A DNA stretch of 64,000 nt from Theocolax elegans (lineage: Eukaryota > Arthropoda > Insecta > Hymenoptera > Cerocephalidae). Below are positions 9,190 through 63,600 of the stretch, in pieces. The stretch is taken from positions 30,005,058 to 30,069,057 of the forward strand of contig CM047426.1 in assembly GCA_026168455.1 (NCBI GenBank), in the 5' to 3' direction. A program made the translations under genes and the position numbers. Each line of letters opens with the position of its first letter. Positions within the stretch are counted from its first letter, which is position 1. A model generated the notes under the pieces. The model saw only the letters and a program-made list of their open reading frames with translations. It was not told the origin of the DNA and made no database searches.

Positions 9190-9510
9190 AAATATAAAAT
9201 AAATGTATTTCTCCGCGAACGCATTCCAACGGCGCGAGCGGATACCGAGAAAGAATCCGCAGTTGAGTTTCGGCGTACCGAACGCGAGGGGATGGTTCCC
9301 CCCTCCCCCCTCCCTTCTCCAGCGTCATCAGCGGCGACCGTGCGGTTATAGGACCCGCTCAACGGTCCAGCCAAGCTGGGCCACCGCCGACTCCCTCTCC
9401 GCGAGGGTAGGTAAGCGACGTAAGCGCGCTGCGTGGGGAAAAATACCAGCATTGCTCCTCGGGCCGTCAGCGGAGCGACTACACTCTCTAGACTTCGATT
9501 CATTAGTTTT
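9190..9510. other. GC-rich CpG island inside the nested element
   Basis: An abrupt GC- and CpG-rich block in AT-rich surroundings, with C-runs near 9299-9318. Frames on both strands are open but overlap each other, as expected from composition. It resembles a captured promoter or 5' untranslated region more than coding DNA. The source gene is not identified. Confidence 0.4.
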
Positions 9511-9618
9511 AATAAACAACAAATTATATCTATGTGTTTTGTTTAATAACCCGCTCACCCTCCTACAATAATAAATTAGTCAACTGTAAATTATTTTATT
9601 ATTTTAACTATTATTATA

Positions 9619-11156
9619 ACTATTGTTGAAAACAAAGTGCAACAGCACGCTCAAAGTTTGAATGAAACAAATAAACTGCCTATAGGAGGAAATAACATAA
9701 TATTTAAACTTTTAAAACTTCTCAGTTGGGAGAAACTGTTAATTGAAATATGTTATTGTTTACATGCTTGGCCTGCTGCTAATATTTGTAAGTATTATTA
9801 TTTATAAAAATATGTTTATTATTATCTTCATTAACATAAATATGATTTGATTTTTATCAGGTTATATCCTAGGTCTGACACCACAATGTAAACAATGTTT
9901 TGCTGCTCTTCAATCGACAGACCAAGTATTTGCCTAGGCAAGAAATCATAGAATACTGTACAGCATTTCTTCTTAATGTATTGGAGTGGGACTATTTAAC
10001 GAGTTTAGAAAAGCAGTGGAGTTGTTTCGAATTTGCAGCTGCACTGAGCAATGTAGCAAAATACAAAGGTAAAAAATTTTTCAACGAAGCTTGGGACATG
10101 GTATTGGCAGCCTGTAAGTCAAATCGAGATTTACCGCAAAAACGTAGTAGCAGCAATAGTGGATCAGCAGGAAATAGTACAGCAAGAGATTCTTTAGCGA
10201 ACATATCATCAACGTTTAGCAGATTAAGAGAAGTTACAATTTTGAATATTGCTATTTCTTTGCTAGCTAGATTACATAATGTTTTAAGAGATGAATCTCT
10301 TCTAGAACTTTATACAACATACTTAAACATGTGTCCCGCTAGTATACCAAAGTAAGTAAATCAATAGTTATTTACAGTTAATTACCTAACTCATTATTTA
10401 AAATGTTTTAGTTCAAAATTATATAATACAAGCATTATTGGAGAATATCTGTTTCAATTGCTCTCACAAGCATTCAAATATTACCCAAATAATGTATCTT
10501 GGCTAAGACTGATGGGAAATCTCAATTTCGGTATGTACAAATAAAATTTAAAACATTATTACTAATAGATTCATTGTTTTCTACTTTACTTATTACTTTT
10601 ATAATTCTTTAGTACTAGGCTATTATGAAAGTGCCACAAAGTATTACTTGGAAGCAATTATAGTAGCTACAGATTTATTCACTATGCCAGTGCGTGGTCA
10701 AATCAACGATTAAGTTTACACAAAGATGATTAAATGTTGTTCTTATCTACAATGTAACACACAAGCAGTTGTGTTATGTCAATTTTTAGACACAGTCGAT
10801 TATGCTAAATTAAATTTAAATGGCTGGTAATGAACAAAAAAATGCAGCACCAAATGACGCCATGGATGCGTACTATCATTGCATTTGGGACACAACAATA
10901 CTTGAATATTTGATCAATTTACAGACCAAGAGAGGAGAACATCATCGCAAACAACTTGCAGTAATGATTATTTTTGCTTGCATTAAAAATTTGATCTAAT
11001 TTCTAATCTTCATTTAAAAATTATTTATTTTTTTAGATAAAAGTTATTGTACTTTTAGAACTGAATTCTAACAACAATGAGGAAATGCAGAGAGACGCTG
11101 CTAATACTTGAAAGGCAAGATTTCTACGTTCTCTTGCAAAACAATACGTGCATTAA
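9619..11156 (+). pseudogene. INTS8: INTS8 3' gene fragment, copy 1 (pseudogene with introns)
   Basis: Integrator subunit 8 is part of the nuclear Integrator complex, which ends and cleaves nascent RNAs such as snRNAs. Exons with good splice sites are at about 9619-9787, 9861-10351, 10412-10530, 10613-10960 and 11037-11156. The translation follows the C-terminal third of animal INTS8. It shows PRQEIIEYCTAFLLN, VTILNIAISLLARLHNV, the PNNVSWL repeat, GYYESATKYYLEA, MIKCCSYLQCNTQAVVLCQF, NDAMDAYYHCIWDTTILEYL, and a last exon matching ELN...EE...AA...FL...AK.Y. Lesions are a frameshift before the TAG at 9935, TAA at 10711 (a Gln codon in the family), a frameshift at about 10828 and TGA at 11109 (Arg in the family). 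Retained introns show DNA-level capture rather than retroposition. The 5' end breaks at about 9619. Confidence 0.88.
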
Positions 11157-11350
11157 GTAAAGAAAAAACAGCGTAAATTTGTATTTATGTATTTTTTATA
11201 TAAAAAGAACTATTCGACATTATGAATATATTGTAAATTTATAAATATAAGTACTACTTATTTTGTAAAGATAAGAATTTCTTCCTCTACGAAGCAATAG
11301 TATTAAAATAAAAAAAAATTAAAAAGCAGTTAGTAAAATTGACTACATAT
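9619..11350 (+). repeat. Inner inverted repeat, left arm (INTS8-bearing)
   Basis: About 1.73 kb, nearly identical to the reverse complement of 12687-14421. The arms contain the five INTS8 exons, their introns and about 190 bp of downstream sequence, ending at GTAGTCAATTTTACTAACTG or its complement. The spacer is about 1.34 kb. The arm centre (about 12,020) differs from the centre of the whole element (about 12,586), so the inner duplication is not simply part of the terminal repeats. Confidence 0.92.
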
Positions 11351-11468
11351 TGTTTCACTTATTGCTATTTACTTATTTACTTATTGTTACATAAATAATG
11401 CAAACATTTAATTCGCACGATTAAATTTTTTTTAACGTTTAAAACTATTTAAAAATATTTTTTTTTAC

Positions 11469-11798
11469 TTAATTAACTAATTTAGTAATCGTAATTAAAT
11501 ACAAGAAATAAGTATTAGTATAATAATTTGGATGAGGATGAGTATGAGGATTAGGATCTGTTGGCGGGCAAGCTGAATGCATTAGTGGCATCGCGGGTGC
11601 ACGTATTTCAGGGGGTACGTTTGATTGTGCCGGATATGATGAGGACGTAGGTTGCACTGCAGGAGCACGTGTGTCAGGCATCACGTGTGCCGGATACGAT
11701 GAAGACGGAGGCTGAACTGCAGGAGCACGTATTAACACTAAAGTACTATTTTTATAAACTGTATCGCATTCAATGAATAAGTTGATAATGTCTAACAA
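11469..11798 (-). other. Proline-rich open frame with internal repeats
   Basis: A minus-strand frame of 109 codons contains repeated (I/T)RAPAVQP(P/T)SSSYPA units of about 60 bp between about 11,600 and 11,735. It lies in the spacer between the INTS8 copies. There is no recognised domain, and it may be part of another captured exon or a simple expanded repeat. Upstream splice sites are not obvious. Confidence 0.35.
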
Positions 11799-11829
11799 CC
11801 TTATTTTATAAATTACTATTTATCAGAAG

Positions 11830-12410
11830 TGTTTGAATGTTACAAATAAATTTTTTTTGCTATATATTACAGAAATTTATAGTTACCTAGTTAATAATTA
11901 CTAAAAAATTTCAAATTATTAAGTAACATAATGAAAGTAAGAATTTTTGTCAGACAATAATGTTGGAAAATGTGATTGGTTAAAAAATGCAAATTTATGG
12001 GATGGTACAAAATGCTTGTCGATTATTCCGCTTTGATTTGAGTACTTTCTATTAGAGAAACTATTTAATTTTAATAACAATTCAATTTAATCAAAATAAA
12101 AATTTTAAAAATGTGATTGGAATACAATACTTGCGAACTTTGACACTTTCTCCGAAGGTGTTTTTTTTTATTTTGTGTTAGAGAAATTAAAAAAAATTAA
12201 CAATTTTAATAACTACTTAATTAAATACAAAATATAAATTTAAAAAATGTGATTAGATATATAATACTTACGAATTTTGACAACTTCTCAGAAGGTGTTT
12301 TTTTTACTATACATTAGAGAAATTTAACGTTACCTAGTTAATACTTTCTAAAAATTTCAAATTATTGTCTAAATAAAAAAAAATAAGTAAGAATTTTTAA
12401 CTGTCAGATA
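11830..12410. repeat. Diverged AT-rich tandem repeats in the inner spacer
   Basis: Motifs recur in order: AAATGTGATTGG, an ATAATACTTACGAA-type block, TTTGACA(C/A)(T/C)TTCTC(C/A)GAAGGTG, then a T-run and GTTACCTAGTTAAT. Partial copies are centred near 11,880-11,970, 12,110-12,170 and 12,245-12,370. They are non-coding. Confidence 0.6.
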
Positions 12411-12419
12411 CGTATAACA

Positions 12420-12690
12420 CACGAAGAATCACGGGTTTACGTCGTTCGGTTGCAGCTTTCTGATAGGCCGAGGCTCGCAGAGACTTCATCATATTTATCC
12501 CCACGCGCGCGCTTTACAATGTCCTGTTTGATATCATTTTCATTCTCTAACGCTATTGAGGCATGGCGCGGGTTTATATATATAGATACATTTTTGCGCT
12601 CACGATCCTATAAATCTATCGGTGCATAATCGTGCGGATTAAATGTTTGCTTTATTTATGTAACGCAGATGATATCTGGGCTGGGAACAA
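12420..12690. other. GC-rich block with TATATATA, promoter-like
   Basis: A CpG-containing island (GCGCGCGCTT near 12,506) next to GGGTTTATATATATAG at about 12,568. Its look suggests a captured promoter region, but there is no identifiable transcript. It abuts the right arm of the inner inverted repeat. Confidence 0.3.
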
Positions 12691-14421
12691 TTAGTAGTCA
12701 ATTTTACTAACTGCTTTTTAATTTTTTTTTATTTTAATACTATTGCTTTGTAGAGGAAGAAATTCTTATCTTTACAAAATAAGTAGTACTTATATTTATA
12801 AATTTACAATATATTCATAATGTCGAATAGTTCTTTTTATATAAAAAATACATAAATACAAATTTACGCTGTTTTTTCTTTTCTTAATGCACGTATTGTT
12901 TTGCAAGAGAACGTAGAAATCTTGCCTTTCAAGTATTAGCAGCGTCTCTCTGCATTTCCTCATTGTTGTTAGAATTCAGTTCTAAAAGTACAATAACTTT
13001 TATCTAAAAAAATAAATAATTTTTAAATGAAGATTAGAAATTAGATCAAATTTTTAATGCAAGCAAAAATAATCATTACTGCAAGTTGTTTGCGATGATG
13101 TTCTCCTCTCTTGGTCTGTAAATTGATCAAATATTCAAGTATTGTTGTGTCTCAAATGCAATGATAGTACGCATCCATGGCGTCATTTGGTGCTGCATTT
13201 TTTTGTTCATTACCAGCCATTTAAATTTAATTTAGCATAATCGACTGAGTCTAAAAATTGACATAACACAACTGCTTGTGTGTTACATTGTAGATAAGAA
13301 CAACATTTAATCATCTTTGTGTAAACTTAATCGTTGATTTGACCACGCACTGGCATAGTGAATAAATCTGTAGCTACTATAATTGCTTCCAAGTAATACT
13401 TTGTGGCACTTTCATAATAGCCTAGTACTAAAGAATTATAAAAGTAATAAGTAAAGTAGAAAACAATGAATCTATTAGTAATAATGTTTTAAATTTTATT
13501 TGTACATACCGAAATTGAGATTTCCCATCAGTCTTAGCCAAGGTACATTATTTGGGTAATATTTGAATGCTTGTGAGAGCAATTGAAACAGATATTCTCC
13601 AATAATGCTTGTATTATATAATTTTGAACTAAAACATTTTAAATAATGAGTTAGGTAATTAACTGTAAATAACTATTGATTTACTTACTTTGGTATACTA
13701 GCGGGACACATGTTTAAGTATGTTGTATAAAGTTCTAGAAGAGATTCATCTCTTAAAACATTATGTAATCTAGCTAGCAAAGAAATAGCAATATACAAAA
13801 TTGTAACTTCTCTTAATCTGCTAAACGTTAATGATATGTTCGCTAAAGAATCTCTTGCTGTACTATTTCCTGCTGATCCACTATTGCTGCTACTACATTT
13901 TTGCGGTAAATCTCGATTTGGCTTACAGGCTGCCAATACCATGTCCCAAGCTTCGTTGAAAAATTTTTTACCTTTGTATTTTGCTACATTGCTCAGTGCA
14001 GCTGCAAATTCGAAACAACTCCACTGCTTTTCTAAACTCGTTAAATAGTCCCACTCCAATACATTAAGAAGAAATGCTGTACAGTATTCTATGATTTCTT
14101 GCCTAGGCAAATACTTGGTCTGTCGATTGAAGAGCAGCAAAACATTGTTTACATTGTGGTGTCAGACCTAGGATATAACCTGATAAAAATCAAATCATAT
14201 TTATGTTAATGAAGATAATAATAAACATATTTTTATAAATAATAATACTTACAAATATTAGCAGCTGGCCAAGCATGTAAACAATAACATATTTCAATTA
14301 ACAGTTTCTCCCAACTGAGAAGTTTTAAAAGTTTAAATATTATGTTATTTCCTCCTATAGGCAGTTTATTTGTTTCATTCAAACTTTGAGCGTGCTGTTG
14401 CACTTTGTTTTCAACAATAGT
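12687..14421 (-). repeat. Inner inverted repeat, right arm (INTS8-bearing)
   Basis: Reverse-complement partner of 9619-11350, about 1.73 kb, with only scattered differences. On this side INTS8 sequence continues past the repeat border for another ~260 bp. The longer, more original capture is therefore on this side, and copy 1 is the derived, shorter one. Confidence 0.92.
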
Positions 14422-14685
14422 TAACAATGATTTTGCTCAAGAAAAATCTTTTGTTAATGTAAGTTCTTGGCTTTTAGCAAGTAAAATGTAAGAATAATCT
14501 TTTAAAAACTTTTCTGGTAATGAAGAAATTACGCTTTGCAAAGGAATTGGTATTTCCCAAGAATTATTTATTTGCCGCAAAGGTTTAGTTGAATTGCCAA
14601 TATGAACAATTTCCACAAGTATTTGTTGAATTTCATTAGGAAATTAGACGTTGTTCTAACTGAAATATCTCAATTCTTTGTTTTT
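12894..14685 (-). pseudogene. INTS8: INTS8 3' gene fragment, copy 2 (longer pseudogene)
   Basis: The same five exons as copy 1 in inverse orientation. The 5'-most exon extends back to an acceptor at 14685 (TTTATTTTAG). The extra part matches animal INTS8: IEIFQLEQRLI, EIQQILVEI, NSWEIPIPLQSVI and a LPEKFLKDYSYILLAKS block equivalent to the family's LTRDLVYILMAKG. It shares all lesions of copy 1. It also has a TGA at 13152-13154 (Trp in copy 1, IWD motif), a frameshift near 14655 and a TGA at 14437-14439 (KDFS*AK). The shared lesions mean the fragment was already dead before it was duplicated within the element, or that the arms have been homogenised since. Confidence 0.88.
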
Positions 14686-14758
14686 CTAAAATAAAACATA
14701 ATATTTTACCAGATAATTAATATTAGAAACAATAAATAAATATTCAAATTACACATAC

Positions 14759-15007
14759 GAATATAATCAACTGGTGCAATACCCCAATCATTATTTAATA
14801 ATAATTCTGGAATCTCCAATTCTTCATGAAATGCTTCTTTCTTTATTTCTTGTAATTCTTTATCGGTGAAGAAACTCTTATACTTCTTGTTGTTTAAAAT
14901 AGCTACGGCAGGTCTAGTAATTTTTCCTACTACAATAAGGTAAATCAAATACCGACCTATACTCTTCTTATCTGAAGGTAAAGCTATTGTAATACGTTAT
15001 TTAGCGT
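14759..15007 (-). pseudogene. Unidentified captured exon upstream of INTS8 copy 2
   Basis: An acceptor (TTTCTCTTGCAG) opens an exon that ends at ATTC|GTATGT. One frame reads through after an early TAA and encodes about 80 residues: LPSDKKSIGRYLIYLIVVG, TRPAVAILNNKKYKSFFTD, then a charged helix and EIPELLLNNDWG. This does not match the INTS8 region that should precede the next exon, so it seems to come from another gene. I do not recognise which. A candidate upstream exon on the same strand ends at ATTTACG|GTAAGT (15,232). Confidence 0.5.
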
Positions 15008-15225
15008 CTGCAAGAGAAATTAGTTTAAAAAAAGTATAATACTAACTATATTATTATTATATATACTATATAACTGATCCGAACATCGGGATATTTACAA
15101 CTATACCCATCTCTGCGTGAGTATATATCTGAATTAATAATATCCATAATATAAATAAATATAATAAATATAAATATAATATAAAATATAATAAATAATA
15201 AAAGAAACGTCCGAGAATCCTCGTT

Positions 15226-15802
15226 ACTTACCGTAAATCTCGAACTCGAAACCGAAACTCGATCTCGAATCGAAAACGAACGCACCCGTAGTGACTAGTG
15301 TACATATATTATACAGCTGCGACGACCATCGGACCATGCAAGCGCAAAATGACAGCTACGACATTTTAGTAACTGCTCGCGTGGTTTTTGTAATTGCAAC
15401 GAAAGTAGGGCACTGGGCTCAGTTGTTCCGGGAGTCGAAATTGAAGTCGAGTGCTGAGGAGTGACCATGATGACACAGCGTTTTGCAGCCTGCAGACCTC
15501 GCTAATACGTAGTGTTTACGAATCGTTGTGTGATATCTTATTACACAGATACGTCTCGTTAACTACAAGAAAAATTACGACTGAATTATAAACGAGTAAG
15601 TTTTTCTTTCTCTCTCTTTCTCTCTCTGTGAAGTGATGCTAATGTAATAATATAATTACAGTTGTTGTGTACAATATACTGTTATGATTGCTGTGACATA
15701 ACCTATCTCTATTTTTTTAACCCACTTTCTTCTGTTAAAATGAATGCTCGTTCTACTTTATTATTTAAATGTACTTATATTTAATTATAATTCATTTCAT
15801 AG
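15226..15802. promoter_or_regulatory. Divergent promoter-like region with splice donors pointing both ways
   Basis: A minus-strand consensus donor (GTAAGT, 15,226-15,231) and a plus-strand donor (GTAAGT, 15,596-15,601) flank a more GC-rich core (about 15,240-15,520). The plus donor is followed by an acceptor (TTCATAG at about 15,802) and an ATG at 15,806. This is what a captured bidirectional promoter with two first exons would look like. There is no defined TATA box, so the promoter call is inference. Confidence 0.35.
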
Positions 15803-16440
15803 ACAATGTCAAATCTTTCATGTATAACTGCAAAAGGTGCGATCATTGTGATGTGACTGATGAGATCTTGATATGATTAAATCTTCCCTGCTGGACTCTT
15901 GGAACACTCTGAAACTTCGATCTCTCCCATAAAGCCTGCGCTGACATGATTTGGAAACTGATCTGAGAATATTCTTTGAGATTACTGGGTCTTTCCTTAA
16001 GAAAAATAATCATTAGGTAGCTGTCTTTTTCACTTCCATAGCTCATAACTGGTCCAAAGGTCAACTTCTTTATGCCAAATTAGTTGCACCTTTCTTCTGC
16101 TGATAGATTATTTGATATCAGGTATTGCAACAACAGTGTTAATTATTTACACTAAGATTTTACGCTAATTAAAACGGTAAGTCGTATGCTAAGATTTTAG
16201 GTACGAGACTAGCAGACAAAGACCATCTGGAGGAACTGGTGGTGGTGTTGGACTTTTCCGATTGTGTCCAAATTAGCTTTGGGCAAGATGAAGCCTTGAA
16301 GGAAAATTCAAAGTTTTGTGGTGTTGTCATTACACAAAAAATCGTGATCATTGGCGTCAACAAAAAGTTACTATTAATTCACAAGCTACTGGTGGCAGTG
16401 TTTCAAGTAACTTTAATGAAATAAAAGATTTAACTGTATG
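15803..16440. other. Exon-like but unidentified sequence in the nested element
   Basis: After the acceptor at 15,802 a plus frame opens MSNLSCITAKGAIIVM and hits TGA. The opposite strand has a 73-codon frame (15,843-16,064) and the plus strand another at 16,239-16,424. Composition is less AT-biased than the flanks, suggesting captured, decayed coding DNA. I cannot say which strand or gene it came from. Confidence 0.3.
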
Positions 16441-16671
16441 GAGCCAAATTTACATAAATATTAATAATAACATTATATTTATTTAACTATATTGTTTTAA
16501 AAATTGTTTTAAAAAACTATAAAATGTTATAAGCAATCCGGCTGAAAATTTTGAAATTTTTGTTTTCACGTAAACACACTCTGAATTTTAATTATCTATA
16601 CATAACTTCAAATTTGCCCAGTATGAGATATTTTAAAGTTATAAAAATAAAAAGTTTAAATCAAGTTTAAA

Positions 16672-17761
16672 AATAATAAAAGAAAGTGTTATTTATTTGT
16701 GAAGCACAAACAAATTTTTGTAATACTTTTTTAAAAAAGCATTTGGCTGAAAATATATTACAGTCAAAGTAATATAAGTTAAAGTTAAGTAGATTATAAG
16801 TAATAAGCTTAATTAGTAAAGTAAATAAGAGATAAGTAGATTATAAGATAAATATAAGTAAATTCAGCAATTGCAGCGTAGCATATACATACTACGGTGA
16901 TTCTAATTAATAAATAGATTATAAGTTAGATCTATGATAATAGATCATAATCATAAGTCCAACATTGCATTGTCCTTGTACAATATGCAACATCTTAGTT
17001 TTAAGCTAAATTACTCAGCTGGCTGATTCACTAAGGCCACTTTAATATAAGTATTTACAATAAGTTAACACGAATTGTGTAAATATTATTTACAGTTGTG
17101 ATATATATCTTTAAGTTGAATTAAAAGTTTATTATATATATAATTTTTATAAACAAAATCAAGATATATAGATCATAAGCTAAGTTACTACTAAGTTAAT
17201 CTTAAGTTAGCATAAATAATAAGTAATATTCCTGGTTTACATAGGGTAATTATAATATTTCAATAATTATAAATTTTTATTATTTCTCATTATCGTTTGC
17301 TACGTATACGCAAATTTATATTGCCATGGAAAAACGGCATAATTCCGCTTCAATCTTTTCTCTCTGTTTCCTCAATCCAGTTCGGTGTTAGAGAGAAAGA
17401 GAGAGGTAAAGAGTTGTGGATAATTCGTTCAAAAAAGTCCACCTGGCGCCATCTCTGAATGGTGTTTTGTACGCATCGGTAGTGGTCAGCGGGCCAACAT
17501 GGCGAGGCAGAAGCTCAAAGTCGGTGACAGATCGGCCGAATTTCACATTTTTCGCAAAAAATGCAGCTTTGGCGTTACGTGCGCCAACGCAAAAAAATAA
17601 TTTATATTAATGGCTTGGGGGGAAAGTCCCTCCCAATAGCCATAAATAGCTGTAAGAGAATATATTTGCATTTTTATTTTTTTTTTCGCGTGATGTACCC
17701 CCTGACCGCAGCGCTTACATCTCAGGTGGCTATTTTCTGAAACTCTGGCTCCGACATCCCC
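16672..17761 (-). repeat. Right terminal inverted repeat of the nested element
   Basis: Partner of 7410-8740, ending GGCTCCGACATCCCC next to TTAA. It has diverged from the left arm by small indels and substitutions, more than the inner INTS8 arms have from each other. The terminal repeats therefore look older than the inner duplication, or less homogenised. Confidence 0.9.
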
Positions 17762-19438
17762 TTAAGCAAGTTGCTATTCCTAAGGACCATGATGCACTTT
17801 TACTATGGAATACTGATGGCGTACCCGTGGCGAATGGACAAGTTTGGTTAGTACAAACTGAAGTTGTAAACATAGCTCCTGAACATAGAAGAAATTTTCA
17901 ATTTATACAAGGAATTTACTATAGTAAAATTAAAAAACCGAACATGAAATCTTTTTTGAAACCTTTTGTGGATACAATAAAGGAAATGTATACAGGAATT
18001 AGTTGGATTGACGCGGAAAATAAAATTTTAAGACACAGTACCATTATAGCTTCTATATCTACGTTAGATTTACCAGCTAGAGCAGAGGTTCAGAATATAA
18101 TGCAGTACAATGGAGAGTATGGATGCACCTTTTGCGAAGACCCAGGCCAAACGTGTGAAACTGGTTTAGGCCATAATAGAGTTTTTCCTTTCAAATCAGA
18201 CGCTGTAACTCCTCGAACTCACGATCGGATGCTTCTACAGGCACAACAAGCAGTTCAGGAAAATTTGGAGCATGTTAAAGGAGTCAAGGGCCCTTCAATA
18301 TGTGTACTCATTCTAACATTTGATACCGCTCGTTCGTTTGTGCCCGACTATATGCACGCAATTCTACTGGGAATATTTAGAATGTTACTTGCGCTTTGGT
18401 TTGACCCTAAAAATAAAAATAGTCCATACTACGTAAAAAAGTCAGTCAGAGATGAGATTGATCGAGAACTTTTAAAAATTTTTCCTCCAGATATTGTAAC
18501 TCGAATCCCAAGAACTTTAAAATACATTCACCATTGGAAAGCAAGTGAACTTAGAGAAGCTCTTACACATTATTTGCCAATATTATTAAACGATAGATTA
18601 AAAAAAGAATATTATGAACATTTCCTTTGTTTGTCTTACGGAACAAGCATTTTATTGAAAAGTAGAATTCACCCACAAGAAATAGATTTGGCCGAAGAAC
18701 TGTTTGATTTATTTGCAATTGATGTAAAAAAACTATATGGATTAAATAAATGCTCATATAATGTTCACCAATTAAGGCACACTCCCCAGAGTGTACGTTT
18801 ATGGGGACCACTTTGGTTTTGGTCAGCGTTCCCTTTCGAAGATGGAAATGGGCAAATAAAAAGTCTGGTTCACGGTTCTAATAAAATCGATGTAGAAATT
18901 GCAAATACTATGTACTTATTGAATATGCTTAAAGTCTTGGGCCATAAACTTGAAATAAAAAGAAGTAAAGATGATCTTTTACTGATTAAGCCACTTGGAA
19001 AAGCTCTGTGAAGAGACTTCATAGGAAATGAGTTCACTGTTATTAATAATTTTTGTATAGCAAATAATTTTGATTTAAACTCTCTTGAAATATTTGCAAA
19101 AGCACAAATTGAAAAACTGTATTTACATCCGAATTGTACACGAGGCAAAAAAAAGGAAAAACTTTTTTATATTTTGGAATACAAATTCTTTTGGTACCAT
19201 ACTGTTTTTTATTTTTGTAAATAATGAAGTTTTTGCTGTAGTTAGAGAATTTATAGAATGTAAGACAACACGTAATATTGAAGTTAGAGAATTAGGAATT
19301 AATTTTTCATGTTTTATTATTCCAGTACGAGATACATACTCTATACACGTTGTACCTATAATATCAATTGGAGGTAAAGTAACCAAAATACTTGATTATT
19401 TATGCTATCCTCTAAATCCGTATGAAAAGAAATCGTAA
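17762..19438 (+). pseudogene. EnSpm/CACTA-type transposase, C-terminal part
   Basis: The frame resumes directly from the N-terminal part at the TTAA (CTT AAG CAA) and runs open to 19,011. Motifs in order are LLLWNTDGVPV, a zinc-knuckle-like YGCTFCED..G segment, PDYMHAILLGI (the D-x-M-H-x-x-L-L-G signature), SYNVHQLRHT, and LWGPLWFWSAFPFEDGNG followed by VHGSN. These match the tnp2 and DUF4218-type regions of EnSpm/CACTA transposases, enzymes that cut and paste their own element. A TGA at 19,009-19,011 interrupts the frame, and coding-like sequence continues (RDFIGNEFTVINNF...). A frameshift in T-runs near 19,190-19,225 moves it to the frame ending at 19,438 with a conserved-looking C-terminal domain (VVREFIECK...DYLCYPLNPY). 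With the nonsense codon, two frameshifts and the nested insertion, the gene is dead. Confidence 0.87.
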
Positions 19439-31600: not shown

Positions 31601-31621
31601 TTATAATTTAAAGAATTAATT

Positions 31622-31960
31622 TTACAGGCAGTCACAGTCGTGTTTTCAGATCAAACAAACTTAAATTTAGAAAGGCACTATCTGCTCTTTGTTCACTACA
31701 TTTAGTGGAATTTCCCAGAACAAGCCCTCGTTAAATAAAAACTATAAGCGTTTCATCCTCGATCCCCAGTTTGGACTCCTCAGTAAGAAACTGGAGATCT
31801 TGCCTTAGACGCCTGTCGTAAGATGAACCGCGACGCCAGCAAAATATTATCCGGCTCTATATATAAATGAAGATGACAATCTCTCTAGCGATTGTAGAGA
31901 ACTAGCCATCTCCCTCTAGTGGTAGAAAAAACCACCAGCCAGAGTGCGACGTAAAAGACC
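31622..31960 (-). mobile_element. Ribozyme-bearing dispersed repeat, copy 1
   Basis: Shares with 32904-33185 (same strand) and 60466-60690 (opposite strand) an ordered set of blocks. In sense order these are a GCACTCTGGCTGGT-type start, a TATATATAGAGCCGG box, the hammerhead domain, then (G/C)GGAA(A/G)TTCCA(C/A)(C/T)-type and GAACAAAGAG-type blocks and a CTGTAA end. No protein is encoded. The left boundary is set by similarity to copy 2, so it is approximate. Confidence 0.7.
31747..31813 (-). ncRNA. Type III hammerhead ribozyme motif, copy 1
   Basis: On the minus strand stem III is GGCGT (31813-31809) with ACGCT (31751-31747). The cleavage-site C is at 31808, giving a GUC triplet. Stem I is TAAG with CTTA, followed by core CTGAGGA (31783-31777, fitting CUGANGA). 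Stem II is GTCC with GGAT, then GAA. The A opening ACGCT is core A15.1, paired to the U of GUC. The loop of hairpin I (GATCTCCAGTTT) is complementary to the loop of hairpin II (AAACTGGGGATC) at 11 of 12 positions. The closing pair of stem II is a G-U wobble. The known reaction is site-specific self-cleavage after the GUC; activity here is inferred. Confidence 0.75.
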
Positions 31961-31972
31961 CAAGTCGCGAAT

Positions 31973-32188
31973 TTCTTTTCAAACAGTGTATTTAACATTC
32001 GGAAATGAGTCTTATTTTACAGTAATTTACGATCATGTTTCCGAAATAAACAAACTTAAATTAAAAACCACTAAATATAGTGGACAAATGACAGTTTGTT
32101 TGTTTGATTCGAAAACACGACAATAAATGCCTGTAAAGTAAGACTCATCACCGAATGCTAAATACATTGTTTGAAAAGAAATAATTAT
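31973..32188. repeat. Palindromic repeat next to the ribozyme repeat
   Basis: Ends TTCTTTTCAAACA(G/A)TGTATTTA pair over about 100 bp per arm, meeting near the CACTAAATATAGTG centre. Each arm also resembles 31,610-31,712, the 3' flank of ribozyme repeat copy 1 (TTTTACAG, then an AAACAAACTTAAATT block and CACTA.ATTTAGTGG). The palindrome therefore belongs to the same composite repeat. Confidence 0.7.
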
Positions 32189-32903: not shown

Positions 32904-33185
32904 ACAGATTCTTTCGAACGAAATCTAATTTTACATTAGGAAGGCTCATGTACTCTTCGTTCAGTATAGTTGGAATTTCCCAGAGCAAGGCCGTTTTAAA
33001 AAATTTTAGGCGTCTCATTGTCGATCTCGAGTTTGGACTCCGTAAGGAACTAGAGATCTCTTACCCCTATATATAGTCAAAAGGGGTGACTATCTTTCTG
33101 GCTAGTAAATAGGTGGCCTTCTTCCCCTAGCCATGGAAGAAATTATCAACCAGAATACGCGAGTGTGCGCCCTCTTACAGTTTTC
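32904..33185 (-). mobile_element. Ribozyme-bearing dispersed repeat, decayed copy 2
   Basis: Same block order as copy 1 on the same strand, about 1.26 kb away. It keeps the TATATATAG box and the mutually complementary hairpin loops (GATCTCTAGTT and AACTCGAGATC, 10 of 11). The ribozyme core is damaged: CTGAGGA is reduced to CGGA, GAAAC reads GAGAC, and the 5' strand of stem III with about 50 bp before it is missing. This copy should not cleave. Confidence 0.65.
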
Positions 33186-47552: not shown

Positions 47553-48567
47553 AGAAGAAAAAGTGAGCAGCAAAAAGGTAATATAAAAAGCAACAAAAAC
47601 TCTCGCATCCACACTTGCCTCCTACTATTGAGGGATCGAGCTTTGGGTTTCTCCTCAAGCGCAATACCGAGCGTGCATTGCGCGCACGTAGGTGTACACC
47701 CTCCGCCCTCCTTCTCCTCCGGTGTAGCGTGAGAGGAGAACTAGAGGAGCGAAGAGCAGCAGCAGCCACTGCTACTCCAAAGAAGAGGTGAACGGAGATG
47801 GAGAGAGAGAGAGATGGTGAGAGAGGAAGGGAGACGGAGAGGGAGAGGGAGAGGGAGAGAGTGAGAAAGGAGAAGAGCCGAGAAGAGAAGAGAGAGAATA
47901 TTGAGGTCAGCGCGTTTTTCCCCTGCGCGCTAAGGGCTTGCGCAGGAGTGGGCGGAGGTGGCGCACACACCGGGTCGAACCTCTCCGCTCTCACCGGGAA
48001 ACGAGACGATTGGGCTCGGCCGCGGAACGCCCCGGCGTGCGTGGGCGTCCGACGCCGCCTCCGACATTTTTTCACCCGTTTCCTCTGCCTTCGTTGCTCC
48101 TTTTTTTACTTCTCCTTTCGTTTTGCGCTCCTCACGGTTTTTTCGTTCTCGAGGCTTTTGCCACCGCCGTCGCCTCTTCTTATTTTCCCCTTTTTCCCGG
48201 AGCGGAGCTCTGCTCCTCTAGGATTCGCGCGACCCGAGCGTTGCTTCAAACTCCCTCGTACCTCTCTCCTCTCTCCTCTCTCCTCTCTCCTCTCTCCTCT
48301 CCTCTCTGCTCTCCTCTTTCCGCTCTTCGCTCTCCGCTTTCTCTGTCGCTCTCTTTTACTCTCTTGCTCGTTAGTTCGCTTTCTCTCCTATGCAACGTGA
48401 AGCTAGAGTGCGTCCCTCGCTTCTTTTTCCCTGGAAGCGCATGCACAGGGAGACGGTAATACGTTCTACCTTGATTTCGCTGCAAAAGAAGCACGGAATG
48501 ATCCTTTCGACGTGCGCTCGCTTTTCTCTTTTATCTCTCTCTCTCTCTCTCTTCACCCCCGCCCTCC

Positions 48568-48621
<54 letters not shown>

Positions 48622-49619
48622 GCCCGCTGTTACTTTTCCCTTTTATGGCGGTAGTCTTTGGTTTTACTTTTTTCAAAGCTAACCCCGCGATCATTTATTA
48701 TTTAGAGTGCTTTTATGCACCTCTAGTCGTAATTGATCTGGAAATTTTTTATAAATTTCAGTTGACGTAATTTAAGGAATTCCGAAAGTCACTTTTTGAA
48801 ATCACAATAATATTTATATATAGAATAGCAGAAATAAGTTTTACACGACAAATGTTAATAGATTAATTAGACTTTTATAAAAATGTAAATGCAAAATTTA
48901 TGGATGGAAAAAATGAAATAAATGGCAACATAATTGCTATACAGAGCGAAGAAACTGTGTTGTTGTATTTAAAAACTTATATTTATTCTAAATAATTTGG
49001 AATTTTCAATTCTTTAACATTCGTGTTACCGTACTGTTGTATATTTTGTATGTGCGTGCGTGCATGTTTACCTGCGAGCATGTGTGTCTGCGTGTATGTG
49101 TGTGTCTACGTTATACATATTCTGCATCACCTATTTACAATAAACAACAAAAATTGATATAAACAAGTCCATAAAACGTACAACATATTTTTCAACCAAG
49201 CTGAACGTATATATAACCAATTAGTAAAATTACATCAGCCATTTATTGTTAATCGTGCATAGAACAAATTGAGGGACTTGCCAAGAACACGCCTTTGTTT
49301 CGCACAGCTTTAATTAGCATCGAAAATATACTTTTTCTTACATTGGACATCTTAGACTACCGAATACTAAAACCAGTCTTATTTCAGTTTAAGTAAAGTT
49401 GTCTCTTTAATAATTTTCAATATAAACATATTGTCATACACATAAACTAATTATAATTATTTATTATTAAGCTATCGCTAGTAAACGCAATATATCTGTA
49501 ACGATTGTTTATTTACAACGTTCACTTATTCATTTTCAATGTTTCTTAAGTATATGAATATAAAAATAAAATACCAAAATATATGAAAGATTCAAGTAAT
49601 CAAAAGTCAAGTATAAGTA
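47553..49619 (+). repeat. 2-kb direct duplication, copy A (CpG-rich block)
   Basis: Nearly identical to 50391-52437. It contains a GA-rich tract (47,797-47,885), a CpG-rich core (47,905-48,260), CT-rich pentamer repeats (48,260-48,305), a CT microsatellite (48,534-48,618) and 800 bp of AT-rich sequence. Differences are concentrated in microsatellite lengths. Frames of up to 212 codons are open here but are low-complexity S/L/R-rich translations of CT/GA repeats, so I do not call them genes. Confidence 0.95.
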
Positions 49620-50390: not shown

Positions 50391-52437
50391 AGAAGAAAAA
50401 GTGAGCAGCAAAAAGGTAATATAAAAAGCAACAAAAACTCTCGCATCCACACTTGCCTCCTACTATTGAGGGATCGAGCTTTGGGTTTCTCCTCAAGCGC
50501 AATACCGAGCGTGCATTGCGCGCACGTAGGTGTACACCCTCCGCCCTCCTTCTCCTCCGGTTGTAGCGTGAGAGGAGAACTAGAGGAGCGAAGAGCAGCA
50601 GCAGCCACTGCTACTCCAAAGAAGAGGTGAACGGAGATGGAGAGAGAGAGAGAGAGATGGTGAGAGAGGAAGGGAGAGGGAGAGGGAGAGGGAGAGGGAG
50701 AGAGTGAGAAAGGAGAAGAGTCGAGAAGAGAAGAGAGAGAATATTGAGGTCAGCGCGTTTTTCCCCTGCGCGCTAAGGGCTTGCGCAGGAGTGGGCGGAG
50801 GTGGCGCACACACCGGGTCGAACCTCTCCGCTCTCACCGGGAAACGAGACGATTGGGCTCGGCCGCGGAACGCCCCGGCGTGCGTGGGCGTCCGACGCCG
50901 CCTCCGACATTTTTTCACCCGTTTCCTCTGCCTTCGTTGCTCCTTTTTTTACTTCTCCTTTCGTTTTGCGCTCCTCACGGTTTTTTCGTTCTCGAGGCTT
51001 TTGCCACCGCCGTCGCCTCTTCTTATTTTCCCCTTTTTCCCGGAGCGGAGCTCTGCTCCTCTAGGATTCGCGCGACCCGAGCGTTGCTTCAAACTCCCTC
51101 GTACCTCTCTCCTCTCTCCTCTCTCCTCTCTCCTCTCTCCTCTCTCCACTCTCCTCTCTCTGCTCTCCTCTTTCCGCTCTTCGCTCTCCGCTTTTCTCTG
51201 TCGCTCTCTTTTACTCTCTTGCTCGTTAGTTCGCTTTCTCTCCTATGCAACGTGAAGCTAGAGTGCGTCCCTCGCTTCTTTTTCCCTGGAAGCGCATGCA
51301 CAGGGAGACGGTAATACGTTCTACCTTGATTTCGCTGCAAAAGAAGCACGGAATGATCCTTTCGACGTGCGCTCGCTTTTCTCTTTTATCTCTCTCTGTC
51401 TCTTCACCCCCGCCCCTCCTCTCTATGTCTCTCTCTCTATCTCGCCCGCTGTTACTTTTCCCTTTTATGGCGGTAGTCTTTGGTTTTACTTTTTTCAAAG
51501 CTAACCCCGCGATCATTTATTATTTAGAGTGCTTTTATGCACCTCTAGTCGTAATTGATCTGGAAATTTTTTATAAATTTCAGTTGACGTAATTTAAGGA
51601 ATTCCGAAAGTCACTTTTTGAAATTACAATAATATTTATATATAGAATAGCAGATTTAAGTTTTACACGACAAATGTTAATAGATTAATTAGACTTTTAT
51701 AAAAATGAAAATGCAAAATTTATCGATGGAAAAAATATGAAATAAATGGCAACATAATTGCTATACAGAGCGAAGAAACTGTGTTGTATTTAAAAACTTA
51801 TATTTATTCTAAATAATTTGGAAATTTCAATTCTTTAACATTCGTGTTACCGCACTGTTGTGTATTTTGTATGTGTGTGCGTGAATGTTTACCTGCGAGC
51901 ATGTGTGTGTGCGTGTATATGTGTCCACGTTATACATATTCTGCATCACCTATTTACAATAAACAAAAAAATTGATTTAAACAAGTCCATAAAACGTACA
52001 ACATATTTTTCAACCAAGCTGAACGTATATATAACCAATTAGTAAAATTACATCAGCCATTTATTGTTAATCGTGCATAGAACAAATTGAGGGACTTGAC
52101 AAGAACACGCCTTTGTTTCGCACAACTTTAATTAGCATCGAAAATATACTTTTTCTTACATTGGACATCTTAGACTACCGAATACTAAAACCAGTCTTAT
52201 TTCAGTGTAAGTAAAGTTGTCTCTTTAATCATTTTCAATATAAACATATTGTCATACACATACACTAATTATAATTATTTATTATTAAGCTATCGCTAGT
52301 AAACACAATATATCTGTAACGATTGTTTATTTACAACGTTCACTTATTCATTTTCAATGTTTCTTAAGTATATGAATATAAAAATAAAATACCAAAATAT
52401 ATGAAAGATTCAAGTAATCAAAAGTCAAGTATGAGTA
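50391..52437 (+). repeat. 2-kb direct duplication, copy B
   Basis: Second copy of 47553-49619. The CpG-rich core is conserved without differences that I can see. The CT microsatellite of copy A is almost absent (near 51,420). The duplication begins abruptly at AGAAGAAAAAGTGAGCAGC in AT-rich DNA, so copy B's 5' edge is a clear breakpoint. Confidence 0.95.
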
Positions 52438-57629: not shown

Positions 57630-60465
57630 ACTCTCTCTTTCTCTTTCTCTTTACTGCTCTTTCCATCTTTCTGTTTTCCAATAATACCGGTGCACGATGA
57701 GAATGCGAATCGAAAATTGAACCCATGATCTCTAAGGATTGTTCTAATTCGTGTTTTTCATGCTAAGTCGATATAAAAACAGTTCATTTTTTATGATAAG
57801 TTTCCCTTCGATAGTACGTTTAGACAAGAAAGGCTAATGAACAGGGAAAAATCTTAAAATTATATGTACCCGTTAAAATCTAAATATATTTAATTTATGC
57901 GGTTAAAGATAATATGATTAACTTTATTTTAATTATATTTGATAATTAAATAAAAACAAAATATAATCTAATCAAATACAGTATTCTAACAAAATAATAT
58001 AGCAGTCACTTAATAACTTATTTCCACACTACAACACCCAAGTGTGCTAGAGAAATTGAAAATGTGTTGCAAAACTAAGTTTTTGATAATAATATCAAAA
58101 TTTTACTATTTACAAAATTCGTGAATAAAAATATTGCTTGTATATTTTTGGATATACCATTAATATTGCACACTTTTTTTGAAATAAAGATAATGATAAG
58201 AGATTTCAAATTCATTCAAATGTTATACGTCGCAGGCTCGAATGAAGTTAATAAATATATAAACTAATACAGTCCAATTTCTTATAAAGGTTTATAAATA
58301 CAGCAGCTACTTAGGCTTCTATCAATCCCCAGCCCTATGTTTTTTTTCTCACGAAAAGTCTCGTAGGCTTAATAGGAGAAATGTTAATACGCAATATCAC
58401 GGAGACGTAGAAGAACGCAATCACATTATCCGCAAAAGTGGGTGAACAAATCCGAGAAGACATGGAGTTGGATGCGTGAATCGCTCATCGTCGCGCCCTC
58501 GAGTAGAGCGTTCACGCGCGGGCTCATCGGACGCGTCCCTCGGCCGGCCAGATTTACTGCGCTCTCCTGTAATTATCATCATAAAGTCGAGTTTACGAGC
58601 AGTAAGGGCCCCTCGTAAAGGAATGCTTCATTTCGTTCACCGGCGCGAGAGTCCGTCGTTGTAGACTTCTTCCCTCTTCCCTCCCCCACGTGGAAAAGGA
58701 CGCCCAGCTTCATTTCTCGAGCGCGACCAGAGCTGAGCATTTTCACCACTCCAATAACGAGTATAGAGATTCCAATTCTTACGGTGTGCATTACGCTACC
58801 GAAGGAGGAACTGTTTTATAACGCGAACTTTGTGGTCGAACGTATCTTCTTTAGAATATACATTATACTTTCATTACTCTTCAAAAGAACCAGCAGTTTA
58901 GAGTTCACGAGTGATATTATTGACGTGCATCATTGCAGACTAGCTGTATTAGATTTTTTATGCGAAATTATGGGTCATTTTTTAAGTTTTCTAATAAAGG
59001 TTAACATAAATTACTATAATTACTTCAAAATTTACCTATAATTACTCAAGTTTTTACGTATATATTTTAACGAAAAAGTAAATATCTGCAATATATGTTT
59101 GTAGTAGTATTGTATAACACAATTCTTAAAGGAGTTTGTGACATTTAACATTGCTCGTTTTTGTCCTTTCAATTTGGTGCTAATTATATTATATAATTAT
59201 AATTACACTTGATCAAAATATATTCCCCTGCAGTGGCGCTTGTCTCAGTTCGTGACCATTTTTTTGTTTAATAAAGAGAAATAAAAAATAAATCATAGCT
59301 TATTTAATTGTTTTCAATATTACGTTAAATATTATACAAAATATTGTACATTATCTTGTGACTACTTTTTATTTTAATTAACATAATAAATTAAGTAAAA
59401 TTTGAGAGTTACTATATTTTCGAAATAATTGAAAATCTAATACTAAACGACATTAATCCGTCGCTAAATCTTTGTTTTTGTCGTTCTTAGCTGTTGTCGT
59501 TGAAGCTTTATATTTCTCACGTTCTCCAAACTGCTATATACAGGTATAGAAAGCTCGGAAGAAATCAATTATGGAACTTTTCAAATTTGTCGGTAATATT
59601 GAAATTTCTTTTATTCCCAGTAGAGCTCGCACAATTCAAGTCCATCGTCAGTCGATGAAAATCCGTAAAGTATGTATCCAAAGGAGTAGATTGCCGCGTA
59701 AGAAATGAAGGAGTAGAGATGGGAGCGAGGAAAACTTTTTGTTTTTCGTTCATCTATTGTCTCTCTATTGCCGGTTTGCGTCGCCCGCTCTGTCCCTCTT
59801 CTCATTTCTGCGGGTGTGCACTAAAATGAGTCGACAGACACCGGACGGTCTTATCATAGAGAAGGGCTTTTGTTCGTTTTCGCGCGCTTATGCATACCCG
59901 ATAGATATTACGACGAGATTGAAAAAAAAATGGATTGGGAAGTGTTTCTCTGTCTTATAAGAGTTTTTTCGGTGTACTTTGTGGCAAGTAGTTCGTAAAA
60001 TCTTATTGCGCGATTGAACGAGCAAGTGCTTTCAATTGAATTCTTCCTCCATGCTTAAATGTGCGAATATTCTACCATTTGCATTGGTATTAGTTCAATT
60101 CCTTAGTTAGTCCTTTAATAAATTCTAGAACTGTTTTGCCTAATGGGATTACTTTTGAAAGAAAGTCTGACAAATAGATACTTTTTTTTCCTTTGAACAA
60201 ACTGTATCGTACTTATTATTATGTAATATTATACGCAATTCACTATAATTTTTAGTAACGACAATAATTTTTATATTATACGTAATAATTTATATAGTAC
60301 CGTAAAATAATTTAATACAATATATGTAATGTAATATTTAGTTGAGTTAAACAACACAAAATAAATGGTAACATTTAAAGTGTATAATTTATATTCGTAA
60401 CATATTTTTTGTTTTGCATGAAAAACCTGAAAATCTTGACTATAATATATATACATATTTTAAGG
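55438..60465. other. Non-coding DNA with GA/CT repeats and GC islands
   Basis: GA repeats at about 57,154-57,190 and CT repeats at about 57,425-57,440 and 57,597-57,650. GC-rich islands lie at 56,740-57,060, 57,200-57,420, 58,440-58,750 and 59,660-59,950. The open frames within them overlap on both strands and none has a recognised domain. The rest is AT-rich. Confidence 0.4.
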
Positions 60466-60690
60466 CATATATATAGCCGCACTTCTTTCATTTGTCGTCG
60501 CTTTCCATCTGCAACGGGCGTCTAAGGAAGGCCTCTAGCTCCTTACTGAGGAGACCAAAGCTAGAGTGCTGTGGTCGAAACGCCAATTTTTAAATTATAA
60601 AGGTTTACTCTTGGACTTCCACCAACCATAGTGGACGAAGAGTAAAAACCCTGCTTAATAAAGCATATTGGTTCGCAGAACCCGATAATA
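60466..60690 (+). mobile_element. Ribozyme-bearing dispersed repeat, copy 3
   Basis: Opposite in strand to copies 1 and 2. It has the TATATATAGCCG box (60,468-60,479), a GTCGTCGCTTTCCATCTG block, the hammerhead domain, then ACTTCCACCAACCATAGTGG-type and GACGAAGAG blocks matching the downstream part of copy 1. Boundaries are approximate. Confidence 0.7.
60517..60584 (+). ncRNA. Type III hammerhead ribozyme motif, copy 3 (best copy)
   Basis: Stem III is GGCGT (60517-60521) with ACGCC (60580-60584). The cleavage site follows C60522 in a GUC triplet. Stem I is TAAGG (60523-60527) with CCTTA (60541-60545). The core is CTGAGGA (60546-60552), fitting CUGANGA. Stem II is GACCA (60553-60557) with TGGTC (60572-60576). 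GAA follows at 60577-60579. All stem pairs are Watson-Crick. Loop I ends CTCTAGCT (60533-60540) and loop II contains AGCTAGAG (60559-60566), eight complementary bases, suggesting a loop-loop pseudoknot. Stem III is the open end, which defines type III. Every invariant core position is present; cleavage itself is inferred. Confidence 0.82.
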
Positions 60691-63600
60691 TTTATATTGT
60701 AATACATATTTTAAGTTAAGACTAGCTTAGAATATGTGGCTCTTCTTCATTATTTGCCCTCTTCTCCTCCCCCCCCCTCCACGATGTTTTTTTTCAGTGA
60801 ATAATCGATGAAAAAATTACATAAACATGAGTATTAATATTTCTTTGGTGTAATTGCAACTACATATATATCTTGAATTGTTGAGTACGAGCCTCGGGAC
60901 GAGCAATAAACAAACATACATGTGCATACACACACACCCACTCATAAATACACGTGCTATTGGGTTATTGGATTTATTTAAAAGTGTATTAAAATAAATT
61001 TACATTATATTTTCCGGTGATAAATAAAAGAAGTGAATGATTAGTTCCAGTTGTAAGTAATATTAGTATTAATTGTTTGTTTAAAGGTTCGGTACTTTCT
61101 GCATTATTTTGATATTATCTATAGAAAAATAGTAAGTAAATAATAATATTACTAATAAAAACCATATTTATCATTTTTTAAGTCACCTTGATCACCAATA
61201 ATACAATTTATACATTTATTTTAACTTAATAAAGTTCCTAGGATAGTGAACTTTGTATATTGTTTTGCGTATTTTTTTAAACATAAGTTTTTATTAATAA
61301 CTTTGTAAATTAAATGTATATATTTAATTAATTTTTATTATTTTCACATATTTATTTGTAATGTAGATAGTACAATTTATCAATCAATAGGGTACGATGC
61401 AGTAGTTTAGGATCAAATAGCATGTGATATCCTTTGTCGTTTCTCTAATTGTTGGTTTGTAACTGTAACTGTACACGACACTCTGTAACTGTCATATAAA
61501 AAGTAACGCAACTTCTATTATTATTTCTAATGGGATATTTTCAATCCTGAATTCTATAGATACCATCAATAATGATAAACAATATTTTTTTCAAAATTTT
61601 ATATAATTTGCAGATAAAAATGTATTTAGGTGTTTTTACATATAAAACGTTAAAAATAGACATAAAATCAAAAAATGTTAAGATTTCCATTTTTAATTTT
61701 GAAAATCCCCAAAATTATGTTAAATTTACTCTATAAAAATGTACATTAATATCTAAAATGTGTAAGAAAAAATTTAAAGGGAAAAAATTGTAGTTGTTCG
61801 ACAAAAACTGACCCTTTATATACGGGAGGTTATATATTTATATTATATATTTATATAATTTAAGATATAAATTGTTAAAAAATAATTTTTTCAATAAAAA
61901 TGTATATATCTAAATATGTATAATAAACTTATACACTTATATGGTTTTACTAAGAAGTAATAGATCCAGATCATAAACTATTTTTCCGAAGTTTACAATG
62001 ACATATAATGCAAGTGATAATACCAAAAGTTAATTAACATAAGATAGAGTTTATGTATTTTACAACGTGCCCTCCTGTCGTAGTACTATTGCAATACCGG
62101 CGAGTACACCGTTGAATAACTTGGCGACGACTATTCGCTACGTAACTGGTACGACGACGACGACGACGACAGAAACAACAAAAATTGAAAACATAGTAGA
62201 AAAGAGGAAGAAACATAGGATCTGCGTGAGATACAAAAGGAAAAACGGTAGCAACGATGCGTAAGGGTAGGAGAGACGGATGGGAGAGCTACGGCAAAGG
62301 TATGTGTATTGCGGTAAAGTTTAAAGGGAGCATGAGTCGAGTGTGGTTGAATTGTTCAAGGAAACAATAATAAAAGTTGCATTAATTAAGAGGGCAGCGG
62401 GCGAGGCTCGCGCGTACAGGATTGCTCGTTAGAACGGGAATTTCTCGCACCGTTGCTTTCCTACTGAGGCCTTATCGAGTTCGCTTTGTTTCTTTCTTTC
62501 GTTTTCCACTCGTTTCCTTTTTTGCCCCTTATTATTTTTGTTTTGTCGCAGATGCATGGAAAAATACATAAATTAAAAGAAACTTGAACCTTTGTTCGTT
62601 GGTCGCTTTAGGTATCGGATTTTAATGAAATAAATAATTCTACTCAGATTTTGCTGATTATGGATTCTCTTGTCTAACAATTAAAATTCAATAAATAAAT
62701 GAATAGAACTTTATTTAATTCTATTGTAATTAAAATAAAAATGTCGTGTGTAATATACTTTTAAAATGCAATGTTTATTATTTGTATGTAATTTAATTAA
62801 AAAGTAATCGATTATTTGTTGCATATGCATATAATTTATCATCCGTCGTTGCATACTTTACGAGTCTTGGTACTTTGAACTTTGTGACTTAGGAAAGTAA
62901 CTCAAAAGTACAATAATAGTGGACGAAAATACGTTTCATTTTGCTAACTTTCAAAAATCTTGTTTTACTTCAGAGTTATTAAACAGTAGTTCTTAAACAA
63001 CTTACTTTTAGTTCATAATTTACACAGCTAGTAATTAAAAGTAAAGTATTTTTAGTAGATAAATTTTAAAGTAAACTGTAAGTAATATTTTTATAAATGA
63101 TGTAATAAGTATGCACAACTATGCTTGGTATTTATTTTTGTTATATTTACAAGTATCTTTTTTTAAACAATTAAAGCGAGCATTTATATTATAAATTAGA
63201 TCATTAGACTTGAAAGTATATACTGATTTGTTTTAGAAAGTAATGTTTTTAAGACAAGTCGATTTACTTGAAATTAGATGTACGTTTGATCGCGTAAACG
63301 GCGTAAACTCATGAGAATCGCCGAATTCGCGGTCGTCCTTTAGGAAGGGTCCCGTAGATATGCGCAACCCATAGAATTACGCTTAAAGGTCGAACGACAC
63401 ACGTAATGCCTCTTTCTGTAGGCTCGGGGAGACAAGACCGCAAAAGCGATACAGAGTACGTCGTCTCCTCTCTGGAAACGTGCCAGGCAGATAGAGGGAG
63501 AGGAGTACAGAGATTGCATTCGTCGACGTTGGTCATTAATTGGCGAGAGATCTTTGTCCGGGCGCGTGAATCGGGTCGCACCATTGTCGTAGGGACCGCG

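Follow-up and report, generated by a model that had tools for sequence, protein, structure and literature searches.

A type III hammerhead ribozyme motif with a long loop-loop helix in a dispersed, retrozyme-like repeat of the wasp Theocolax elegans

The analyzed window, that is, the whole 64-kb stretch of Theocolax elegans DNA, includes a 68-nt plus-strand segment that a first-pass annotation, made from the letters alone, described as a complete hammerhead ribozyme in a dispersed insect repeat. Does this segment belong to a self-cleaving RNA, and what kind of element carries it through the genome? The assigned features are collected in Table 1. Direct reading of the sequence and a descriptor scan of both strands for hammerheads of types I and III (stems of at least 4 bp; for stem III of type I, at least 2 bp) agree on an exact type III core in this segment, hereafter copy A, which comprises CUGANGA, GAAA, and an NUH triplet with the U16.1-A15.1 pair. 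The parts follow each other from 5' to 3' as GGCGU C^ UAAGGA - AGGCCUCUAGC - UCCUUA CUGAGGA GACCA - AAGCUAGAGUGCUG - UGGUC GAA ACGCC, and the motif is assigned to type III because stem III is the open one. The predicted cut (^) falls after C17 of GUC. The three stems had been given 5 bp each, which holds for stems II and III, whereas stem I has 6 bp. The only other hammerhead place in the 64 kb lies on the minus strand, with its cut after 31808 (copy B). The motif had also been judged unlikely to arise by chance, and the simulations agree: 150 first-order Markov sequences yielded 0.0067 type III matches per window with stems of at least 4 bp and none with stems of at least 5 bp.

Table 1. Features assigned in the window and the evidence on which each assignment rests.
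Feature	Position	Strand	Evidence
Hammerhead ribozyme, type III, complete (copy A)	60517..60584	+	sequence, scan, loop shuffles, comparative rows
Stem III, 5 bp, GGCGU / ACGCC	60517-60521 / 60580-60584	+	sequence
Predicted cleavage site, after C17 of GUC (C17 = 60522)	60522..60523	+	sequence, established hammerhead chemistry
Stem I 5' strand UAAGGA, partner 60540-60545	60523..60528	+	sequence, scan
Loop I strand CUCUAGC of loop-loop helix	60533..60539	+	loop shuffles, comparative rows
Stem I 3' strand UCCUUA (6 bp)	60540..60545	+	sequence, scan
CUGANGA core, letters CUGAGGA	60546..60552	+	sequence, scan
Stem II 5' strand GACCA, partner UGGUC 60572-60576 (5 bp)	60553..60557	+	sequence, scan
Loop II strand GCUAGAG of loop-loop helix	60560..60566	+	loop shuffles, comparative rows
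GAAA core	60577..60580	+	sequence, scan
TATA-box-like TATATATAG, kept in copies A, B, and C	60468..60476	+	sequence, copy alignment
Hairpin 3' of ribozyme, in copies A, B, and C	60604..60646	+	folding, copy comparison
Element copy A, 237 bp, 5'-truncated, ~unit positions 145-385 of the 388-nt unit	60465..60701	+	
Direct repeat, left copy, exact 14 bp ATACATATTTTAAG, flanks copy A, putative target-site duplication	60451..60464		
Direct repeat, right 14-bp copy, flanks copy A	60702..60715		
Copy B hammerhead, second type III, cut after 31808	31746..31813	-	
B-type composite insertion (our reading of the matches)	31609..32182	-	
Copy C, degraded B-type unit	32912..33160	-	

A point absent from the earlier description is that loops I and II of copy A are complementary over exactly 7 bp (CUCUAGC / GCUAGAG), a pairing equaled in 5 of 5000 shuffles that kept the composition of both loops and, for the corresponding pairing of copy B, in 0 of 5000. 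Copy B is 78.8% identical to copy A over 66 nt by blastn and has an identical core, a stem II of GUCC/GGAU vs. GACC/GGUC in copy A, and a loop-loop helix of 10 bp composed of different letters. Outside the ribozyme of copy A, the TATA-like box lies ~50 nt upstream of the predicted cut, and changes in the outer stem of the downstream hairpin look compensatory in a by-eye comparison.

The description of the repeat as dispersed was borne out in the 658-Mb assembly, where the copy A query has at least 55 matches at E<=1e-3, mostly 94-96% identical (40 of 959 candidates scored), and the copy B query at least 62 matches, mostly 79-88% identical (40 of 1825 candidates scored). The A unit and the B consensus agree at 255 of 334 aligned positions and have the same core letters. 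An exact 61-nt hammerhead of the B consensus, representing the older subfamily, occurs in 146 genome copies (64 forward and 82 reverse); the reversed-pattern control gave 0 and 0. Among the places listed, 16 minus-strand exact copies occupy C1:40576649-40582665 and are followed by two plus-strand copies; 14 of the 15 spacings in this array are 385-389 and the remaining one is 589. The layout is retrozyme-like, with tandem units of ~388 nt that carry one hammerhead each.

To compare the copies, 115 loci matches were reduced to 109 that cover most of the ribozyme and then to 55 distinct rows, every one of which entered the counts; L001 and L033, which duplicate the window, were excluded, and the A-type rows were shifted by one column in loop II by hand before pair counting. 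Pairs are formed in 262 of 273 cells of stem I, 208 of 218 of stem II, and 259 of 274 of stem III, i.e., in 95-96% of stem cells vs. 14-59% when the partners are slid by one or two columns. The loop-loop helix is paired in 476 of 545 cells (361 of 382 for its inner seven pairs). In the second pair of stem II, 22 rows have A-U and 28 have U-A, a compensatory exchange, and two loop-loop pairs switch between the subfamilies (U-A/C-G and C-G/U-A). Changes on both sides were observed for none of five pairs in stem I, two of four in stem II (up to two in the slid controls), and three of ten in the loop-loop helix (up to four in the slid controls); stem III has such a change in one row only. Since the number of pairs with both-side changes does not exceed that of the slid controls and most of these changes separate two lineages, the covariation is supportive but thin, and the comparative strength, as judged on these aligned copies, is the consistency with which the named pairs form.

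A further type III hammerhead, named family X, was found at locus L009. It has CUGAUGA and a 12-bp loop-loop complement and shares the core and topology of the A/B hammerhead; the X and A/B units have no similarity by nhmmer at E<=10. Family X has at least 63 matches in the genome (40 of 1152 candidates scored), the best 40 of which are 99-100% identical, and outward-facing inverted pairs recur among them. We identify the copy A segment as a hammerhead on the grounds of its exact core, the stems paired over 55 copies, the A-U/U-A exchange in stem II, and the existence of the unrelated family X, and we infer that the repeat makes self-cleaving RNA.

The distribution of unit ends suggests how the repeat moves. 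We assembled 33 chains of units from 18 of the 30 A-query loci; the other 12 loci overlap these or share the local repeat of L019. The 3' ends of the chains fall at unit positions 385-388 (17 chains), 28-42 (14), or elsewhere (2), and therefore 31 of 33 chains end in one of two zones ~40 nt apart, where L010 served to set position 388 and its own ends are thus included by construction; a few of the ends counted are internal junctions. The 5' ends are scattered from unit position 17 to 358. None of the 33 chains starts within 3 nt of the cleavage site, which is spanned by 27 of them, and 22 cross a unit-unit junction. The templates visible in these chains are not cleaved linear monomers, because no chain starts at the cut and most run through it; what was copied extended across the cut and was therefore uncleaved tandem RNA or religated circles. 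In the 22 of 29 B-type loci that could be oriented, most 3' ends lie 182-190 nt past the cut and a minority extend to about 200-265 nt, a similar though less sharp pattern. As regards the preference of Penelope-like elements for AT-rich targets, two insertions abut (AT)n; the window background itself has 32% GC.

In their tandems, outward inverted pairs, and two 3' ends, the units appear to insert much like Penelope-like retroelements. In Penelope-like elements, two internal start sites of reverse transcription (RT) explain an optional tail of 30-40 bp, and both DNA strands are cut; insertion in vitro does not require cleavage of the RNA, according to the same study of the anole (PMC11167929). 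ORFs for Penelope-like RT and GIY-YIG endonuclease are common in the wasp genome, themselves in tandem and inverted layout. At G000:C2:18967516-18979747, for example, matches to Penelope-like RT/endonuclease lie in open frames of up to 911 aa at ~3.7 kb spacing, two on the minus strand and then two on the plus strand, a tandem and outward inverted arrangement like that of the ribozyme units.

It is very probable, in our judgment, that copy A is a true type III hammerhead with an unusually long loop I-loop II helix, residing in a ~388-nt non-autonomous retrozyme-like element mobilized in trans by Penelope-like enzymes. The unit itself has no room for an RT/GIY-YIG ORF, as the ~388-nt units repeat directly. 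Mobilization in trans is what we infer rather than observe, because the one autonomous Penelope-like terminal repeat compared with the unit shares no sequence with it (nhmmer, best E 1.2). The same comparison bears on a different reading that overlaps this one, so that the two are not exclusive, namely that the unit is the terminal repeat of an unseen autonomous Penelope-like element. We regard it as rather unlikely: it accords with the insertion signature and with the Penelope-like ORFs found ~0.7 kb or nearer at two of the 30 A-query loci, but, besides that missing similarity, the array units stand too close for an ORF between them. The autonomous terminal repeat compared, at L073 (C2:18969900-18971350), contains no CUGANGA, and inspection by eye suggested a degenerate hammerhead-like motif of the minimal type I (GGGACG...CGUCCGAAACGUC).

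Less probable still is that the motif was once a true ribozyme and is now a dead fossil, functionless in this species. Decay is visible in the truncation of copy A, in the wrecked copy C, whose hammerhead remnant at ~33059-32936 (-) has lost the 5' strand of stem III and the UGA of the core, and in the failure of 17 of 33 distinct B rows on the core check. However, 20 of 22 distinct A rows retain an intact core (two fail), and so do the remaining 16 B rows, as expected for a young (A) and an older (B) subfamily; moreover, most A-type matches are 94-96% identical, the best 40 X-type matches are at least 99% identical, and the 146 exact B-consensus ribozymes persist.

A search with the Rfam covariance models, which the first-pass annotation named as a check that would refute the motif if no hit passed the threshold, counts against it at face value: none of the families attains its gathering score anywhere in the window. 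With relaxed scoring, the copy A locus obtained 14.5 bits for RF00163 (Hammerhead_1; cut-off 34); RF00008 (Hammerhead_3) was not listed at this locus in that scan, which keeps only the best of overlapping clan members. RF00008 scores family X up to 42.9 bits (E 1.3e-5; cut-off 48.5). It marks 14 places in the genome, none over the cut-off (68 of 79098 candidates scored), and the nine that were fetched are all X variants, the longest ungapped loop-loop pairing spanning 10-13 bp in eight of them and 6 bp in the ninth. Given that RF00008 finds family X, we read the Rfam miss as a limit of the models, with 11- and 14-nt loops joined by pairing. Type I hammerheads, as represented by RF00163, have a single place in the genome, under the cut-off (73 of 80241 candidates scored).

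The nested minimum free energy (MFE) fold of the 68-mer places the loop-loop helix in a hairpin and differs from the hammerhead; its energy is only modestly better than that of shuffled sequences (z -1.76; 10 of 200 as good). For A, B, and X, the stems of the hammerhead and the loop duplex together amount to -28.3, -27.8, and -39.5 kcal/mol, respectively, without a pseudoknot penalty, and the MFE values are -24.1, -24.8, and -36.3 kcal/mol; with that penalty left out, the hammerhead and the long hairpin are similar in energy. A loop-loop helix of 10-12 bp with linkers of 0-3 nt would be geometrically tight, and on geometric grounds it is doubtful that all 10-13 loop-loop base pairs form simultaneously in the active fold. 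One could take the segment for an imperfect long hairpin only, with the loop strands paired round a small inner hairpin and the hammerhead likeness incidental, since A, B, and X all have this hairpin as their MFE fold and it draws on the same long complementarity conserved between the subfamilies. We find this very improbable: it leaves unexplained the exact core common to A, B, and X, the 95-96% pairing of stems I, II, and III, and the exchange in stem II; the full motif has the low chance expectation given above; and an unrelated family has the same core and topology.

The insertions in the window itself bear on the class of the element. None of 400 Markov versions of the two 151-nt flanks of copy A contained a 14-bp match; copies B and C have no flanking direct repeat of 8 bp or more. 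The B-type composite insertion comprises a unit at 31977-31609 (-), a partial unit with tail at 32065-31980 (-), and an outward-facing plus-strand 3' piece that ends near 32173, with a palindromic center at 31971-32182. That this palindrome is an unrelated MITE was also considered and was rejected, since its two strands both match the 3' end and tail of the B type. That the whole family is a MITE-like DNA transposon with terminal inverted repeats and the ribozyme as passenger is suggested by such palindromes and by the many outward inverted pairs, but it is highly unlikely in view of the head-to-tail arrays (among the places listed, as many as 16 copies of the exact ribozyme), the variable 5' truncation, the two favored 3' ends, the unequal arm lengths, and the direct repeat round copy A, all of which misfit cut-and-paste transposition.

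For the retrozyme-like element that we favor, we propose the following scheme. Transcripts started at the TATA-like box would carry the ribozyme close to the 5' end, and in tandems each unit would contribute one; cutting at each GUC would release monomers of 388 nt that bear 5'-OH and 2',3'-cyclic phosphate termini, and some of these monomers would be ligated into circles. A Penelope-like reverse transcriptase/GIY-YIG endonuclease acting in trans would then cut both DNA strands and begin copying internally at one of two sites; copying along a circular or multimeric template would generate tandem arrays and inverted pairs. The long loop-loop helix may hold stems I and II side by side and favor ligation, and its competition with the long hairpin of similar energy may serve as an on/off switch.

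Known hammerhead-bearing elements resemble the wasp family only in part. The retrozymes of metazoans have hammerheads of type I, and those of plants have hammerheads of type III (PMC7229834; PMC7761336). The metazoan (non-LTR) retrozymes likewise form tandem few-hundred-nt units with one hammerhead each, have target-site duplications of more than 4 bp when these are present, and coexist with Penelope-like elements; their hammerheads are of type I, in contrast to the type III and long Watson-Crick loop helix of the wasp unit (PMC7229834). The wasp unit of ~388 nt fits their unit length of ~170-400 nt. Plant LTR retrozymes also combine a type III hammerhead with a non-autonomous retroelement, but are LTR-type elements of ~700 bp with 4-bp target duplications, as opposed to the ~388 nt of the wasp unit and the 14-bp repeat at copy A (PMC7229834). 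Penelope-like elements with hammerheads share the tandem copies and the two favored 3' ends (PMC11167929; PMC7761336), and the inverted pairs would follow from a Penelope-like enzyme that cuts and extends both strands, as we interpret PMC11167929; these elements have minimal type I hammerheads and encode RT and GIY-YIG, whereas the wasp unit is non-coding and of type III (PMC11167929; PMC7761336).

Pseudoknotted type III hammerheads have been described from HDV-like RNAs of termite and toad and from the genomes of termites and flies; the authors report none for the hymenopterans that they searched (PMC7936874). They resemble the wasp motif as insect type III ribozymes stabilized by pairing of loop 1 with loop 2, but their helix I is long and contains an internal loop, their GCCR/YGGC pairing is short, and the termite genomic ones are isolated motifs (PMC7936874). 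The wasp hammerheads lack the GCCR/YGGC layout; their terminal loops pair, mostly over 7-13 bp, within a high-copy mobile element. The pseudoknotted construct dissected in PMC3088659 has 6 bp, vs. the longer wasp helices. According to the same source, the vast majority of hammerheads in eukaryotic repeats are of type I (PMC3088659). A review names insects, with bacteria, among the hosts of elements with type III hammerheads, and the occurrence of type III in insects as such is thus not new (PMC7761336). Among the papers listed by full-text searches of a library that leaves out most subscription journals, no title or abstract opening describes the wasp family; two pattern scans of IMG/VR viral contigs gave no match.

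The wasp family matters in that animal mobile elements are mostly known for type I hammerheads without such long loop-loop pairing, and hammerheads of its kind escape the Rfam hammerhead models when the thresholds of these are applied. The length that a hammerhead loop-loop helix can reach could also be studied on these natural ribozymes. The combination of a high-copy intact type III ribozyme with a Penelope-style signature poses a testable question, namely whether Penelope-like enzymes mobilize retrozymes via circular RNA. More tentatively, and a little on the doubtful side of even, we propose that these units are the animals' own type III retrozymes, i.e., small non-coding RNAs with a loop-loop helix of 7-13 bp as a folding/ligation switch, which had two or more independent origins (A/B and X) within a single wasp genome and are spread by Penelope-like enzymes copying round circular RNA. 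If true, type III animal retrozymes would link Penelope-like elements, retrozymes, and the HDV-like circular RNAs of insects.

Other features of the window were recorded along the way. Its INTS8 exons best match those of the chalcidoids Nasonia vitripennis (77%), Copidosoma floridanum (71%), and Eretmocerus hayati (69%), as would be expected of a chalcid wasp as host. A large inverted duplication at 8077-17200 has arms 9617-11423 / 12627-14423 and 8077-8536 / 16741-17200 (98%), includes an INTS8 exon frame in both arms (9900-10355 on the plus and 13685-14140 on the minus strand), and represents either a palindrome or an assembly artefact. There is also a direct duplication of ~2.1 kb (47553-49619 and 50391-52437, 96%), and a 174-bp unit is repeated in tandem at 1-659 (3.8 copies, 99% matches). 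The 394-aa open frame at 17827-19008 has weak similarity to Transposase_21, under the cut-off, and named relatives in wasps, ants, and other animals. Elsewhere in the genome, L014 (frame 2-472, ~0.6 kb from a ribozyme insertion) and L027 contain open frames composed of short repeats such as GTNIGPTL.
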